From Bdellovibrio reynosensis (lineage in GTDB: Bacteria > Bdellovibrionota > Bdellovibrionia > Bdellovibrionales > Bdellovibrionaceae): a stretch of DNA of 64,000 bases. The position numbers and the translations under genes are program-made. The DNA lies in assembly GCF_022814725.1 (NCBI RefSeq), contig NZ_CP093442.1, positions 2,418,001-2,482,000 on the forward strand, written 5' to 3'. Below are positions 34,008 through 40,389 of the stretch, piece by piece. The notes under the pieces were generated by a model, which did not search any database, was not told the DNA's origin, and saw only the letters and a list, made by a program, of their open reading frames with translations. How positions within the stretch are numbered: the stretch's first letter is position 1; each line of letters begins with the position of its first letter.

Positions 34008-34140
34008 TTTTCCTCTGTCGAACTTCTAATCAATCGAAACTTCTTTTCCAAAGACAGCCCATTCTGCGGCTGTAATTCTAATTTTTTAAGACCCCTATGC
34101 TAATTTGCTCCAACAAAACGAAATTATGTTGGAGCAAGCG

Positions 34141-35295
34141 ATGAAGAGCTTATTACTTTTCTTAAGTACGATTTTAATTTCGGCAAACGTTTATGCCGAT
34201 AATTATTCTTGGGGTTTTGAAAAACCAAAAAAAAATACTACGACAAATGGTTGCACTATTTATAACCCGTTTATCGAAGTCGGCGGTGACGATGAGCAGT
34301 CTCCGCAATGGTCCGGAGAATGCAAAAATGGTTTAGTGAGTGGCTGGGGATACATCAGACCTTCAAGATATCTCAGTAAAATGTTCGCAGAATTCAAAGA
34401 GGGTCGTCTGGTTAGTGATGTATTTCTTTACATCTTTGATGAGGACTCCACTTTTTTTGCATATAAGAGCAAAGGAGTATTCAAAAGAGGATTTACAGCA
34501 GCTATCGGTGATTGCAAGGCAAATCCTACCCACGGTCAATCGTGTGCCCGAATCATGGCTGCCCTAAAGAAAACAAATCCTTATCCAGAAGTAAAAACGA
34601 AAGAAGGATGTACGGTCATTGATTCTACACGAATTCTTAAGCGCCATAAAAATCCATCATGGACAGGAAAATGTATTAACGGTCTTGGCAGTGGCCTGGG
34701 CTGGCTGACGTTCGAAGACACAGTCAATGATACAACAAAATACTACAAGCTTTTACTGGAGCTAAAAGAAGGAAAACTTTCTAACAAATATTTCCACCTT
34801 AACAATACTGGGTATGGCGGATTGGAGAAAAGCACCATGAAAATAAATGAGGGGTACGGCTTACACTCGTATGCTTCATGCGATAAAAATCCGGAGTGTT
34901 TAAGAATTGAAAACGCAGAAAAATACGGCATTCCCGGCCAACAAAAACCGCCATTAGTTCCAAGTTCTTCAAGATATGATTCAGGTTCCAACGGTAATGT
35001 TTCAGGCTCGCGTGCAAATACATTCGAGGCGCCTCGCTCATACCTAAAAGGATATGAGGGACCTCTTACTGCTTGTACCGATCAAGCTATTGATGCTGCG
35101 GTTGAGCAGATTCGTCCGCGTTTAAATTTTAATACGCAAGGTATTTGCGACAGTGCCAAGGAAAACGCGAAACTTATGTATTTTATGACTACACTTATAC
35201 AGAAAAGCTGTCCGTACGACCAAGATAAGATTTCTGCCTACGATGAATCTTTTAGGCAATCTTTGGAACTAGAAGAGGGGTCTTGTGTTTACTAA
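34141..35295 (+). CDS. Secreted protein with duplicated MORN-like module
   Basis: About 384 residues with signal peptide MKSLLLFLST to VYA. Two internal modules repeat the pattern W-S/T-G-x-C-x-N-G-L-x-S-G-x-G (WSGECKNGLVSGWG and WTGKCINGLGSGLG), each introduced by GCT(I/V). This resembles MORN-like repeats with a disulfide-forming Cys pair. A third Cys-rich domain at the C-terminus ends with ELEEGSCVY. I start at 34141, seven bases after GGAG; upstream in-frame TTG is unlikely. It stands alone, closed by a terminator. Confidence 0.7.
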   Translation: MKSLLLFLSTILISANVYADNYSWGFEKPKKNTTTNGCTIYNPFIEVGGDDEQSPQWSGECKNGLVSGWGYIRPSRYLSKMFAEFKEGRLVSDVFLYIFDEDSTFFAYKSKGVFKRGFTAAIGDCKANPTHGQSCARIMAALKKTNPYPEVKTKEGCTVIDSTRILKRHKNPSWTGKCINGLGSGLGWLTFEDTVNDTTKYYKLLLELKEGKLSNKYFHLNNTGYGGLEKSTMKINEGYGLHSYASCDKNPECLRIENAEKYGIPGQQKPPLVPSSSRYDSGSNGNVSGSRANTFEAPRSYLKGYEGPLTACTDQAIDAAVEQIRPRLNFNTQGICDSAKENAKLMYFMTTLIQKSCPYDQDKISAYDESFRQSLELEEGSCVY

Positions 35296-35351: not shown

Positions 35352-35864
35352 CTAATAAAGCTTAGAAAGCTCCATCGAGTATTTGCCTGGGGCATATTCT
35401 GCCAGGCGCTTTTTATAAAGATCTTGGAAGAACTTATCTTTCGCACTGTAGTTTGCGTAAGGGTAAATAGCAATACCTCCACGCGGAGTAAATTCACCGA
35501 TCACTTCAATGTATTTTGGTTTCATCAACTTCACTAAGTCATCGCAGATCGTTTGCACGCAGTCTTCGTGGAAATCACCGTGGTTACGGAAGCTGAAAAG
35601 GTAAAGTTTTAAAGATTTTGATTCGACCATTTTTTTATCAGCGATGTAGTTGATAAAAATTTTTGCGAAGTCAGGCTGGCGGGTCTTTGGGCAAAGCGAA
35701 GTAAATTCAGTACAAACAAAAGTTGTCCAAGCGACCTTGCCTGGATTTTTGTTATCGAAAGCTTCTAATACTTCTGGGGCGTAAGTCTCAGGGTAATGGG
35801 TTTGGTTTTCACCCAAGGCGAAGGTTTCTAGTTCTTTTGCGTCTCTGCCGGATTTCTTTTTCAT
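35352..35864 (-). CDS. queF: NADPH-dependent 7-cyano-7-deazaguanine reductase
   Basis: Reduces preQ0 to preQ1 in queuosine synthesis for tRNA wobble modification. The 170-residue unimodular QueF has the catalytic Cys58 in FTSLCPKT, the QPDFA and [22 protein letters not shown] signatures and the ending [13 protein letters not shown]. This is the short, unimodular form. It lies 40 bases after the small secreted protein gene and may be transcribed with that operon, but the functions are unrelated. Confidence 0.95.
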
Positions 35865-35903: not shown

Positions 35904-36389
35904 CTACTTATTCTTGCCCTTTTTCTTAGGCGCAGGGGCGGATTGCTCCCCAGTACAGGGCATTTCTTTCACTAGTTTCATTCTAGAATCTAGATCGGGA
36001 TGCAAGGGATCAGCGACTCGCTGTTTTATATCATCCCTCATAAAACGCGCCGTAGATGGCTTGTCTGGAGCTGTCAGCGCCTTTATTTCCTTTTCAGATA
36101 ATAGCGAACTGACTTTGCCTTGATACTCTTTAACCGGTGATAGAATTTTGCCTTTAACAGTGACCGAATTATCTATGAAGACTTCAGCAAGTTCTTCTAA
36201 GTCAGGAGCTAACGTAAACGTGGTTTCGCTCATTGAACCCGGATAAAGCTTCAGTACATTTTTTCCGTCGACTTTTTTAATCACGCCATCAATTTCGTAT
36301 CTGCCGCACTTAAATTTTTCTGCATAACTTTGGCAAGTGGCTAGCAATATCCACACTGCCAACAACGTTTTCCACATTTTCATTTTCAT
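35904..36389 (-). CDS. Small secreted protein in the caspase-like operon
   Basis: About 161 residues. I choose the ATG at 36389 because it overlaps the upstream stop as ATGA, and AGGAA lies nine bases before. It has a signal peptide (MWKTLLAVW to SYA) and a periplasmic domain with Cys near KFKCGRYEIDGVIKKV and MPCTGEQ, ending in a Pro/Lys-rich tail. No family is recognised. Coupling to the clan CD-like gene suggests it is secreted with it, perhaps as inhibitor or chaperone; this is speculation. Confidence 0.6.
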   Translation of the reverse strand: MKMKMWKTLLAVWILLATCQSYAEKFKCGRYEIDGVIKKVDGKNVLKLYPGSMSETTFTLAPDLEELAEVFIDNSVTVKGKILSPVKEYQGKVSSLLSEKEIKALTAPDKPSTARFMRDDIKQRVADPLHPDLDSRMKLVKEMPCTGEQSAPAPKKKGKNK

Positions 36390-37714
36390 AAAACAAAGTT
36401 CCTGCATGGGTTTGGTTTTTTCTCTTGTGCTGAAAAGTGCTGATAAAGTTTTTCATAAACATCTCTTTCAGCTTGGGCCACTTTATCTGCTTCCCAATAA
36501 ATATCATGGGCCTTTTTATCAAACTCAGCTTGTTTTGTTTTCCACTGTTGGAATTCAGGGCTGGAAACCTGTTCTTTATAAGCTTTAAGTTCAGCACTTT
36601 CTTTCTGACTCAGACTGCCAGCCTGAGCCTTTTTTTCAAGTTGTTTATAACCAAACTCCCACTGCTTTAGGCTTCCGCAAAGTTGATAGTTTAAAACATT
36701 TTTACACTTATTTCCGTTATCAATACTGTTGACTGAAACAAAAGATTCTTGAGCATGCTGACGAGCGTTCTCATAGCTCTGCATAGAGGATTCAAGCTTT
36801 TTTATGATGGGCTCAACCTCGGAATCCGTAAGACCCAAGCGTATTCGCGCTTGATGATACAGGCCCTTGTTTTTTTCAATGTCGCGAAGTTGCGAAACTA
36901 GTTTTTTAAAAGGATTCGAATTCACTCCATAACAGTCCTTAGCATCTTGAGCCATTGCTGGCGCAATACTGGTTCTTTCACGCATAGATTCAGATAAAAA
37001 CTGAGTAGCCGCATACGCTTTACGACCCGCTTCTGTTGAAATTTGCGGGGCCCCTGGTGATGGAGCCTTTCGCCCCATTAAAAAAGCCTCTTCAAGATTG
37101 GAACCCTTTTTAATATTTTTTCCAATTTCTTCACCCGCATTTACATAACCGACATTATGAGAAGCTGCAGACACGACACACGTTTTGTCAGAACCTAAAT
37201 TTAACGTCACCCCCGAATGACAGGAATAATCTACGATACCTAACTGAACTCCGTTAGCTTCAGCTAAATCACGAAGCTCTTTTAATTGACCAAGATCAAT
37301 GATTCCATCTGTAGCAGCCACACTGTGCGCAATTTGCGGTGGTTGAGTAGGCAGACCATGGGTTGCAATCGTGACCATCAACTGATCGCCGCTTTTAAGG
37401 TCACCGGACTGAATGCGTTTTTTAAGATTCGCAATTTCATTATTAACATGAAACGCCGTCATCGGTTTATTCTGTCCCTTAGACATAGTATTCGCCAAAG
37501 CTTCTGACTGCGGATGTCCACCATCAAAATAAGAGCGCGAGCTCCAACCACTTTGCGAAGAAAATAAACCGAAATCTTGATAAGTCTTATCAAAAATTGT
37601 TCCCGGGGTTGCTGGTTCACCACCACCCCCGAAAAAAACGACTTCTTTTTTTGCGTAAGCCGAAAAACTAAAAAATAAAAAGAGAAGCCCGAGGGCTGCT
37701 CGTTTAGTTAACAT
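36386..37714 (-). CDS. Secreted caspase-like (clan CD) putative cysteine peptidase
   Basis: A 442-residue protein with signal peptide MLTKRAALGL to AYA. The clan CD dyad is visible: His119 at the end of a hydrophobic strand (MVTIATHG) and Cys165 at the end of another (VQLGIVDYSCHSGV), 46 residues apart, as in caspases, metacaspases and gingipains. The C-terminal half is helical with many Lys, Glu and Gln. It overlaps the upstream lipoprotein gene by 11 bases. The function is probably proteolysis outside the cytoplasm, but activity is not shown and specificity cannot be read. Confidence 0.72.
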   Translation of the reverse strand: MLTKRAALGLLFLFFSFSAYAKKEVVFFGGGGEPATPGTIFDKTYQDFGLFSSQSGWSSRSYFDGGHPQSEALANTMSKGQNKPMTAFHVNNEIANLKKRIQSGDLKSGDQLMVTIATHGLPTQPPQIAHSVAATDGIIDLGQLKELRDLAEANGVQLGIVDYSCHSGVTLNLGSDKTCVVSAASHNVGYVNAGEEIGKNIKKGSNLEEAFLMGRKAPSPGAPQISTEAGRKAYAATQFLSESMRERTSIAPAMAQDAKDCYGVNSNPFKKLVSQLRDIEKNKGLYHQARIRLGLTDSEVEPIIKKLESSMQSYENARQHAQESFVSVNSIDNGNKCKNVLNYQLCGSLKQWEFGYKQLEKKAQAGSLSQKESAELKAYKEQVSSPEFQQWKTKQAEFDKKAHDIYWEADKVAQAERDVYEKLYQHFSAQEKKPNPCRNFVL

Positions 37715-39743
37715 TCTTCATTCCTGAATAACGGGCCATCCAATAAGCATAAAGGTAATCAACTCCTGAATACTCTACACCTTTTGCATGACCACCTTGG
37801 TAAGCAAAACCCTGTTCCTTCCACAAGAAATTACTTGTGAAAGCATTTAATTCAAAGGTTGGGTACTGATATAAACCTTGATAGAAATAGCTTACCGGAG
37901 GTTCCGGTTTTTTAAGCGACTTCCAGAACAATCTAGGAATAGGTGACATACACCAGTCTGGGCGAAGTGAATGATCAATATTCACATCAAGGTTAGGGCG
38001 AGGATAGGGGATTTCTCTTAATCCCCAAACAGATTGCGCAAGTGAAGTTTCAAATTGAAGTTCACTGCTATCGTCTCTGAACTTCCCACCGCGCGTACCA
38101 TGCTTATAAGCAAACGCATATGTTCCAATAGTTTGGAAGTGACGATGAGCTGGTCGATAAGTGATCCAGGCATCAATCAAACGCTCTCGTAATTGATCGC
38201 GGATCTTATTTTTACCTAGTAGATCAGCAAGTACGATGTCGGTGATATCACCAACCATGCTTAGATTGATACCGCTCCAATCCGCAGAACCATTCCAGTA
38301 AAATGTAGTATCAAAACTATAACCAGAAACTTTCGTACGAATGGATGAATAGAACTTTTCAAATTTTTCTTTTGAATCGGTGTTACCGTTGATCCAAGCA
38401 TCAAGCCCGTAAGCTGCAGATTTATTTTGCGGCTTATCTTCCATGATTTGTAGTTTGATCAATTTTTTTGATTTTTCACGAAGGCCATTCCAAATTTCTG
38501 TATCAGTTTTTGGAATCACAAGGCTTGCCCACATGAACCCATGGGTGATCCCCTTAACCATGTCGTTATTTCCGCCTTCTAGCCAGATGAACTTTTCATA
38601 TTTACCTGTACCGCGGTGCCACTTTTCAGAAATCGGTTTTGTTGGATTATAAATAGCAATAGTGCGAGCGAACTCTTCTTCATTTCCGGTGATATCCATC
38701 AACATGATAAGAGCTTTCGTCGCGCGACGAGCGTTTTCTAACGCTTCTTCATTCTTCGTAGTTAAATAGCGCATCGCTTGAGAACCCACATACATACCGG
38801 TCCACAAACTAGCATCACCATCATATGCGTATTCAAGCAAACGACCTTGCGGATCTAAAACCGCATGGGACAGCATGCCTGCTTCATTTAAGTGAAAGTC
38901 ACGGGCGTTCTTTTCAAAACCAGTGGCCTTTTGATCCAATGTCGGGGCATAGGCATTTCTTTTCACGACTGATTCAGTGATGCTGATATCATCGGTGACC
39001 TTATTTACGACACGGATCACGTCGTTATTGTGGCGATAAAATTCAAAGTCCGTCGGATCAAAAACTACGTATGGCTGTTCGTTTTTATACTCAGAGCGAT
39101 CCTTATAGGATTTAACCAATGGATCCTTTTCGTAACCAATATCCATTTTAAACGCTTTTATAACTCCACGAACAATCAATGGGACCTTGTCACCTTTAGC
39201 ATCAAACTTTTTTCGCTCATTGACCCATAAAGGTTTTGTTTCTAAATCACGTCGGGTTGTAATCCATTCTGTATAACTAGAAACTTTTTTATCGCTATAG
39301 TGGCTTGCTAAACCTTGGGGTGAAATTGCAAAACGCGAAACTACATTGATCGAGTTTCTAAAATCCGTAGGATCTCTTTTTACATTGCCAAGTTTTTGAA
39401 TGAAATCGCCTTGACGAATATCATAACTGATTGTCAAAGCGTCCTTTTCAGCAACAGCCTTGCCAGTCCAAACTTCTTGGACCTTTAAACCATCAAAGAA
39501 ATAGTTGATGTAAGTAACTACGCGGACGACATTGAATGTGCCGTCATTGGAACGACGTAATTCAATCTCGCCATTGTATGGACCGCGAGTAGAAGAAGAC
39601 CCTTGCACAAACCAGATTCCTTCCATTCCGCCATTTGCTTGCAACGAAGCGATGTCGCGAGGAATCTGTCGTTCTTTGTGAGAGCATGAATTTAAAATAA
39701 AAAAGCCCAATAAAAAGAGGAATGCACTACAAATAGTTTTCAT
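37704..39743 (-). CDS. Lipoprotein of unknown function, possible alpha-toroid fold
   Basis: A 679-residue lipoprotein with lipobox ending LNSC (Cys20). An N-terminal beta domain (about 35-260) is followed by a helical region in which DASLWTGMYVGSQAMRYL, NARRATKALIMLMDITG and later HRHFQTIGTYAFAYKHG recall alpha/alpha-toroid proteins such as glycan-acting enzymes. I cannot assign a catalytic residue. It is the first gene of a unit with the caspase-like protein and a small secreted protein, all exported. Confidence 0.62.
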   Translation of the reverse strand: MKTICSAFLFLLGFFILNSCSHKERQIPRDIASLQANGGMEGIWFVQGSSSTRGPYNGEIELRRSNDGTFNVVRVVTYINYFFDGLKVQEVWTGKAVAEKDALTISYDIRQGDFIQKLGNVKRDPTDFRNSINVVSRFAISPQGLASHYSDKKVSSYTEWITTRRDLETKPLWVNERKKFDAKGDKVPLIVRGVIKAFKMDIGYEKDPLVKSYKDRSEYKNEQPYVVFDPTDFEFYRHNNDVIRVVNKVTDDISITESVVKRNAYAPTLDQKATGFEKNARDFHLNEAGMLSHAVLDPQGRLLEYAYDGDASLWTGMYVGSQAMRYLTTKNEEALENARRATKALIMLMDITGNEEEFARTIAIYNPTKPISEKWHRGTGKYEKFIWLEGGNNDMVKGITHGFMWASLVIPKTDTEIWNGLREKSKKLIKLQIMEDKPQNKSAAYGLDAWINGNTDSKEKFEKFYSSIRTKVSGYSFDTTFYWNGSADWSGINLSMVGDITDIVLADLLGKNKIRDQLRERLIDAWITYRPAHRHFQTIGTYAFAYKHGTRGGKFRDDSSELQFETSLAQSVWGLREIPYPRPNLDVNIDHSLRPDWCMSPIPRLFWKSLKKPEPPVSYFYQGLYQYPTFELNAFTSNFLWKEQGFAYQGGHAKGVEYSGVDYLYAYWMARYSGMKNVN

Positions 39744-39803: not shown

Positions 39804-40271
39804 TTAGTATTGGATTCGGTCTAACTTTGCCTGCCATTCTTTGAAAACAGCTAGGGCTTCATCGTGACCGCATTGGATCATCGGCACTTTGCGAAGGGCG
39901 ATCTCCTTAGGAATTTCTTGATAAAGAAAATCATCATCGAATTCGATATCGGCAGCATCTTTACGCGTGTTTGCATAAAAGATTTTATCAATACGTGCCC
40001 AGTAAATTGCGGCAAGGCACATAGGACAAGGCTCGCAGCTGGTATAAATTTCTGCACCTTCTAAACTAAAATTTTTTGCATTCTCGCAGGCATTACGGAT
40101 AGCGACTACTTCAGCATGGGCCGTAGGATCGTTGGTGGAGGTCACTTTGTTCCAACCTTCACCAATGATTTTATCGTCCTTAACAATAACGGCCCCAAAA
40201 GGACCGCCAGCACCGGCTTGCATATTTTTTCTAGAGAGCTCGATGGCTCTTAGCATGAATTCCTTTTTCAT
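39804..40271 (-). CDS. guaD: Guanine deaminase, cytidine-deaminase fold (GuaD type)
   Basis: Hydrolyses guanine to xanthine. About 155 residues with the zinc-binding HAEVVAIRNAC (His and catalytic Glu) and SCEPCPMCLAAIYWARI (two Cys). The C-terminal DIEFDDDFLYQEI segment is the domain-swapped part found in Bacillus-type GuaD rather than in tRNA adenosine deaminase TadA. I start at 40271 (MKKEFMLRAIELS), which fits family length; the next Met (40256) has an AAGGA ribosome site and is an alternative. A TadA-like role is less likely. Confidence 0.85.
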   Translation of the reverse strand: MKKEFMLRAIELSRKNMQAGAGGPFGAVIVKDDKIIGEGWNKVTSTNDPTAHAEVVAIRNACENAKNFSLEGAEIYTSCEPCPMCLAAIYWARIDKIFYANTRKDAADIEFDDDFLYQEIPKEIALRKVPMIQCGHDEALAVFKEWQAKLDRIQY

Positions 40272-40389
40272 AAGGTGGACAATATTGGCCAGGGGATAGG
40301 AATTAGTCAATCCCTACCGATGGACTTTTATTGCCGTTTCACCATGGAATAAAAAAAAAATAGTTATTGGAACCGGTATTAGGGGAGTT

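Follow-up and report, generated by a model that had tools for sequence, protein, structure and literature searches.

An exported clan CD-type peptidase and its co-evolving small partner as a two-gene module of Bdellovibrionota

Three open reading frames (ORFs) overlap end to end on the minus strand of a window of 64,000 nucleotides (nt) from Bdellovibrio reynosensis (contig NZ_CP093442.1, positions 2,418,001 to 2,482,000), and they raise the question of which of them belong together and what they do. The original prediction had described them as an operon of exported proteins built around a caspase-like peptidase. The three frames, of 679, 442 and 161 amino acids (aa), were found as it had placed them, with overlaps of 11 nt between the lipoprotein and peptidase genes and 4 nt between the peptidase and small-protein genes. 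We found that the peptidase and the small protein form a real, widespread and unnamed two-gene module, akin to known kinds (clan CD peptidases; a protease with a co-encoded control protein), which in the genus lies inside a conserved locus. Furthermore, we give about an even chance to the reading that the clan CD cysteine peptidase, with its predicted dyad His119/Cys165, is exported and held inactive by its own exported partner, whose predicted fold is like that of oligonucleotide/oligosaccharide-binding (OB) proteins. The features of the pair are listed below by position in the window.

36386-37714, minus strand: 442-aa cysteine peptidase of clan CD (caspase/legumain fold), predicted to be exported, from its reading frame, fold and dyad
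37358-37360 (His119 codon) and 37220-37222 (Cys165 codon), minus strand: predicted catalytic pair of the 442-aa peptidase
35904-36389, minus strand: small exported partner protein, 161 aa, with a predicted OB-like fold; proposed inhibitor or self-protection protein
36386-36389, minus strand: ATGA overlap of the small-gene start and the peptidase-gene stop, from the sequence

The partner is 167 aa long if the upstream ATG at 36407 is its start, and the ATGA overlap makes translational coupling of the two genes likely.

What is the 442-aa protein? Its hydrophobic N-terminus ends in AYA-KKE, as judged by eye; signal peptides and lipoboxes were assessed here by eye and with a crude pattern. His119 lies in the motif ATHG and Cys165 in DYSCHSG, so that the numbering of the original prediction, which had proposed a clan CD-type peptidase with this dyad, is correct. 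The structure model, built from eight sequences (that of the window and relatives from named genomes), reached a predicted local distance difference test score (pLDDT) of 82.9 and a predicted template-modelling score (pTM) of 0.78. In Foldseek the top 16 rows were all caspase-type, with a best E-value of 1.3e-3, and included SAVED-CHAT, caspase-9, a C11 protease, caspase-4, -11 and -1, MALT1 and metacaspase 9. VIA-align, for which Z of 7-8 is the typical level of models without a clear match, placed the peptidase well above that level, with Z of 14.6-16.1 over about 173-203 residues and a root-mean-square deviation mostly of 2.8-3.4 to legumain, caspases-6 and -7, metacaspases and MALT1. Legumain scored 16.1 (198 residues, 2.9 A), procaspase-6 15.7, metacaspase 4 15.6 and MALT1 15.4. 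The caspase-like fold, which the original prediction had wanted checked by structure prediction, was thus recovered as a caspase-type alpha/beta model, a likeness at the level of structural alignments.

The conservation of the dyad was analyzed in relatives from across the phylum. A peptidase profile of 15 members matched 18 of the 143 genomes of the class and 71 of the 368 genomes of the phylum, in a search that scored at most four candidates per genome, so that paralogue numbers are lower bounds. We then assembled 99 fetched regions, which together with the window made 100 stretches holding 2158 ORFs; three weak peptidase places (G347, G354 contig 72 and G357) were left out. These stretches contained 105 peptidase-profile ORFs, and 12 shorter than 400 aa were dropped, leaving 93 full-length proteins from 59 genomes. 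His119 and Cys165 occur together in 92 of these 93, in relatives down to about 14-30% identity, and in the same 92 of 93 a His-Gly and then a Cys follow hydrophobic strands. His119, Gly120, Asp162, Cys165, Gly168 and Cys437 are each kept in 92/93, Cys179 in 93/93 and Cys261 in 91/93. The sole relative without both catalytic residues (L209:3047-4276) has Glu for His and Ala for Cys, and no partner was recognised adjoining it.

Sequence databases do not name the protein. Neither the window peptidase nor its partner has a naming match in Pfam or NCBIfam, and the peptidase has no match to Peptidase_C13 or Peptidase_C14 in Pfam at E <= 1. The relatives match Peptidase_C13 in 15/93 and Peptidase_C14 in 10/93 cases at E <= 0.1. 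PDB sequence searches gave chance-level rows only; among them GSU0716 (3bij), which we take to be caspase-like, aligned across the His-Cys stretch at E 0.37 and is suggestive at most. The anti-phage defence models of PADLOC matched neither the lipoprotein, the peptidase nor the partner. Since the predicted fold, the conserved dyad and the C13/C14 matches of relatives agree beyond chance, the assignment of the 442-aa protein as a clan CD peptidase that falls in neither the C13 nor the C14 model is well supported by model and sequence together, and the protein is presumably proteolytic. The original prediction of an exported and uncharacterised system likewise holds; both proteins carry export-type N-termini, and no family names them.

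Two further regions of the peptidase bear on its action. Arg-specific members of clan CD carry an acidic S1 residue two positions before the catalytic Cys (C-2). In the 93 relatives hydrophobic residues predominate at this position (F 25, L 22, M 10, against D 2), which, given these S1 determinants, would speak against a metacaspase-type preference for Arg/Lys. The C-terminal end has the conserved form N-x-C-x-x-[FI]-x-[LF] and is preceded by about 190 mainly helical residues. Because the VIA alignments reach residue 442 in every row listed, we infer that this tail completes the core sheet of the model.

Does the small protein belong to the peptidase? In the genus Bdellovibrio it occurs in exactly the same 11 of 24 genomes as the peptidase orthologue. 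Across the 2158 ORFs an iterated partner profile gave 86 matches, and all 86 adjoin a peptidase ORF. Seen from the other side, 85 of the 93 peptidases have an adjacent partner on the same strand, downstream in 50 cases and upstream in 35, and the gaps between the two genes are mostly -22 to +15 nt. That the order flips while the adjacency stays speaks for a functional link and not just for synteny by descent. Searched in whole genomes, the partner profile matched 75 of the 368 phylum genomes: 61 have both proteins, 10 the peptidase only, 14 the partner only and 283 neither. As these genomes are related to one another, a Fisher value for this table does not count as a probability. A reverse test started from 30 partner places outside the fetched regions and yielded 29 partner ORFs, and an adjacent peptidase-profile ORF was present for 17 of them at E <= 1e-3 and for 20 at E <= 1. 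Several of these neighbours have diverged and carry DHG together with motifs of the HCFGGG or CFSGG type, and one divergent partnered protein (L241) passes the Pfam C13 threshold with 28.1 against 22.8 bits. No third gene accompanies the pair beyond lineage-local synteny in a clustering of neighbours across the phylum. A strict one-pattern scan of the contigs of named genomes gave six loci and has no bearing on absence outside Bdellovibrionota.

Moreover, the two proteins co-evolve partner by partner. The tree distances of peptidase and partner correlate with r 0.741 over 84 pairs; in 1000 swaps of partners within genomes, which keep the species history, the mean was 0.666 (sd 0.017, maximum 0.718) and none reached 0.741. 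In 17 genomes two to four of these pairs are present.

Some observations on other loci were made along the way. The loci L034:5164-8797, L162:1-2038 and L181:577-4488 show peptidase-partner-peptidase arrangements and one case of two partners between two peptidases, as if the pairs duplicate as units. At L193 (G157), L033 (G063) and L222 (G150) the peptidase gene is broken, which suggests an active turnover of pairs. Partner-linked proteases of a divergent type, carrying DHG-type and C[FYH][GSA]G-type motifs, were seen at L225, L226, L230, L231, L235, L237, L238, L240, L241 and L250; some are nearer to legumain (C13), most were missed by the main profile in the phylum search, and they form a second branch of the pairing.

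What, then, could the partner be? Its N-terminus looks by eye like an export signal. After the signal it has a pair of cysteines, Cys28 and Cys145, each kept in 84 of 86 relatives and capable of forming a disulfide, and a loop at residues 52-55 of the form [ST]-x-S-[EQ], with Ser54 in 81/86 and Glu or Gln at position 55 in 81/86. The window partner is without the usual lipobox, and a lipobox-like pattern is found in 10/86 relatives by the crude pattern. The model from seven sequences (pLDDT 71.8, pTM 0.64) is small, beta-rich and OB-like. Potempin A of Tannerella forsythia heads its VIA list (Z 5.9, 5.8 and 5.7), a weak ranking within a common fold; below it come a NigD-like protein and nucleic-acid-binding proteins of the OB fold at Z <= 5.4. 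Foldseek listed proteins of the OB fold and OB domains of superantigen-like type, with no row at E <= 0.001.

As both genes travel and evolve together across the phylum, the pattern suggests a role of the partner in controlling the protease and perhaps in shielding the cell from it. We prefer an inhibitory role because the hint from the partner's fold joins with the precedents of the potempins and of Bd3459/Bd3460, to which we return below; the conserved Cys pair and loop motif of the partner are also in its favour. In such a mechanism both proteins would be exported, and the partner would bind the peptidase, once mature, at the cell surface or within the periplasm. The bound peptidase might stay inactive inside until its release onto a target, and could then act outside, or after loss of the partner, on prey, environmental or envelope proteins. 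The module would work as a protease-inhibitor or effector-immunity pair.

Several points weigh against inhibition. The Z of 5.9 for Potempin A is within the common range of OB folds, other OB-type domains in the same list reaching 4-5.4, and no Foldseek row reached E <= 0.001 for either model. No partner was recognised for eight of the 93 peptidases, and no adjacent peptidase for nine of the 29 partner ORFs of the reverse test; among these nine, L223 lies at the edge of its contig, and a large ORF carrying a YTDHGGP motif overlaps L244. Within Bdellovibrio, identity to the window protein is 46-64% for the partner and 40-55% for the peptidase, so that the partner is not the faster-evolving of the two, as an arms-race inhibitor might be. 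Finally, an activator, a foldase or a secretion adaptor would yield the same genomic pattern.

This last possibility is the main rival, namely that the peptidase needs the small protein as activator, foldase or secretion/targeting adaptor for its folding, maturation or delivery. It predicts identical adjacency, co-occurrence and co-evolution, and computation separates it from inhibition in none of these; the conservation of the partner within the genus, which does not fall below that of the peptidase, agrees with it, and the conserved loop around Ser54 fits either kind of binding surface. However, the best fold rows of the partner, though weak, belong to an inhibitor family, and the eight peptidases for which no partner was recognised tell against it. 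We regard it as doubtful, although it deserves more weight than the other alternatives.

A second and improbable alternative holds that the two proteins stay bound in a stable complex, with the partner as substrate, scaffold or subunit, and that the enzyme could act as a ligase or transpeptidase on the partner or on its own Cys-containing C-terminal tail. The nearest folds include legumain and the asparaginyl ligases of plants, and some relatives of legumain are ligases or transpeptidases; the conserved C-x-x-[FI]-x-[LF] tail (Cys437 in 92/93) and the conserved SE/SQ loop of the partner also speak for it. Yet the alignments that run to residue 442 suggest a tail in the core sheet and not a sorting signal, and no second substrate family accompanies the pair.

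A three-gene system of lipoprotein, peptidase and small protein comes third. For this alternative the surroundings of the pair are needed, which are as follows.

37704-39743, minus strand: 679-aa lipoprotein ORF, upstream neighbour of the peptidase gene, from the ORF list
35352-35864, minus strand: QueF (preQ1 synthase), fixed downstream flank, TIGR03139 at 158.2 bits against a cut-off of 86.9, and synteny
39804-40274, minus strand: cytidine/deoxycytidylate deaminase-family protein, upstream flank, PF00383 and synteny

The frames overlap in the window, and the 11 genus genomes that hold the pair here all keep the order deaminase, lipoprotein, peptidase, small protein and queF (in G017 divided between two contigs). 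However, the lipoprotein is present in 23 of the 24 genus genomes; in 12 of these its gene abuts queF, and no peptidase lies between them. At other loci the pair does not have the lipoprotein as a neighbour, and in the 24th genome (G022) a divergent pair lies at another site. Because the lipoprotein is present in 12 genomes without the pair, it stands outside the unit as a neighbour, and the peptidase and small protein are the unit, lying within a conserved lipoprotein-queF locus. The claim of an operon built around the peptidase with the lipoprotein included therefore fails, and a three-gene system is largely refuted and very improbable, although the lipoprotein is probably co-transcribed with the pair here. 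In the weakest alternative, rated lowest of all, the peptidase is a caspase-fold pseudoenzyme or binding protein without catalysis, which its lack of recognition by Pfam families and a catalytic role predicted from sequence and model would allow, but which hardly agrees with His and Cys (and likewise Asp162 and Gly168) kept in 92/93 relatives at such low identities.

On the lipoprotein itself, the N-terminal FFILNSC is lipobox-like, and its Cys is kept in the orthologues read. The lipoproteins of the 23 genomes are about 41-75% identical, dense in invariant Trp, Gly, Tyr and Arg, and fixed beside queF. The window lipoprotein has no Pfam match above the cut-off and a single weak PDB row; an enzymatic role was considered and set aside on these results. 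On the other side of queF and convergent to it, the plus-strand ORF at 34105-35295 encodes an exported Cys-containing protein without a Pfam match, which has two similar blocks of the form W-[ST]-G-[EK]-C-[KI]-N-G-L.

How did the pair come to be scattered in the genus? On a tree of lipoprotein and QueF, five changes of gain or loss of the pair are needed, three of them forced by well-supported branches, and long branches make a finer reading unsafe. As the site is identical in all 11 genomes, we prefer an old cassette that was lost repeatedly, both genes together, as a preference and not as proof. An origin from a mobile element or phage was also considered and rejected, as the peptidase matched no viral contig, phage or plasmid. 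The genomes that probably represent HD100, Tiberius and SSB218315 are without the pair, and kdesi has it. Since HD100-type strains are without it, the pair is accessory to predation and no general requirement for it, and predation time courses of HD100 are uninformative on it. For kdesi, an assembly guided by HD100 and a possible incompleteness are noted (PMC11656739); that the pair is an artefact of this reference is unlikely, because the reference itself has none. In the open-access literature on caspase-like proteins of Bdellovibrio and Bdellovibrionota we found no paper on this peptidase family, and an earlier description is possible.

If the inhibitory reading is true, a peptidase family unnamed by public models has been found via its partner rather than via its own sequence, the partner offers a direct handle on proteases without annotation in predatory bacteria and in relatives of these, and natural inhibitors of caspase/legumain-fold enzymes are supplied. 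As the co-evolution is paralogue-specific, the claim can be tested directly with mixed pairs from one genome. More broadly, and a little short of an even chance in our view, Bdellovibrionota may hold a diversified and so far undescribed repertoire of secreted clan CD proteases, each with a cognate exported inhibitor. These inhibitors would be an OB-fold class directed at caspase/legumain-type enzymes, grown to at least four pairs per genome, and gain and loss of pairs would tune digestion without self-harm.

Finally, the module was compared with known systems. It resembles the clan CD peptidases (legumain in C13; caspases, metacaspases and the paracaspase in C14) in its model fold and in a His-Gly and then a Cys after two hydrophobic strands. 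The motif of metacaspases is D-x-C-H-S-G, and the D-x-S-C-[HYF]-S-G of the present peptidase is near to it. In contrast to C13 and C14, the Asp is at C-3 and not at C-2, the acidic S1 residue of Arg-specific members is missing at C-2, and the long helical region stands before the conserved Cys-containing end. The staphopain-staphostatin system of Gram-positive bacteria likewise joins a secreted cysteine protease with a small, specific, co-encoded inhibitor, but there the protease is papain-like and the inhibitor cytoplasmic.

The potempins of Tannerella forsythia are described as small lipoproteins that lie next to and precede the KLIKK proteases and inhibit the co-expressed protease (PMC7296668). 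The present pairs are alike in that a small exported protein, specific to its neighbour, is encoded directly beside a secreted protease, as in the 85 of 93 cases above, and perhaps also in the weakly matched OB-like fold of the partner model. They differ in that most partners here have no lipobox and the gene order varies, and no relation was seen between the sequences. The KLIKK proteases belong to the metallo and serine classes, whereas the protease here is of clan CD.

The work on Bd3459/Bd3460 of B. bacteriovorus describes an exported endopeptidase gene followed by that of an exported protein which inhibits it in the predator periplasm, and its authors expect that further effector-immunity pairs can be located (PMC4686830). 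Both systems thus combine a gene for an exported peptidase with one for an exported partner, but their folds are unrelated; there a peptidoglycan DD-endopeptidase meets ankyrin repeats and inhibition is proven, whereas here a clan CD peptidase meets an OB-like protein and inhibition is inferred. If this holds, the idea of self-protection in Bd3459/Bd3460 extends from peptidoglycan enzymes to enzymes that cut proteins.

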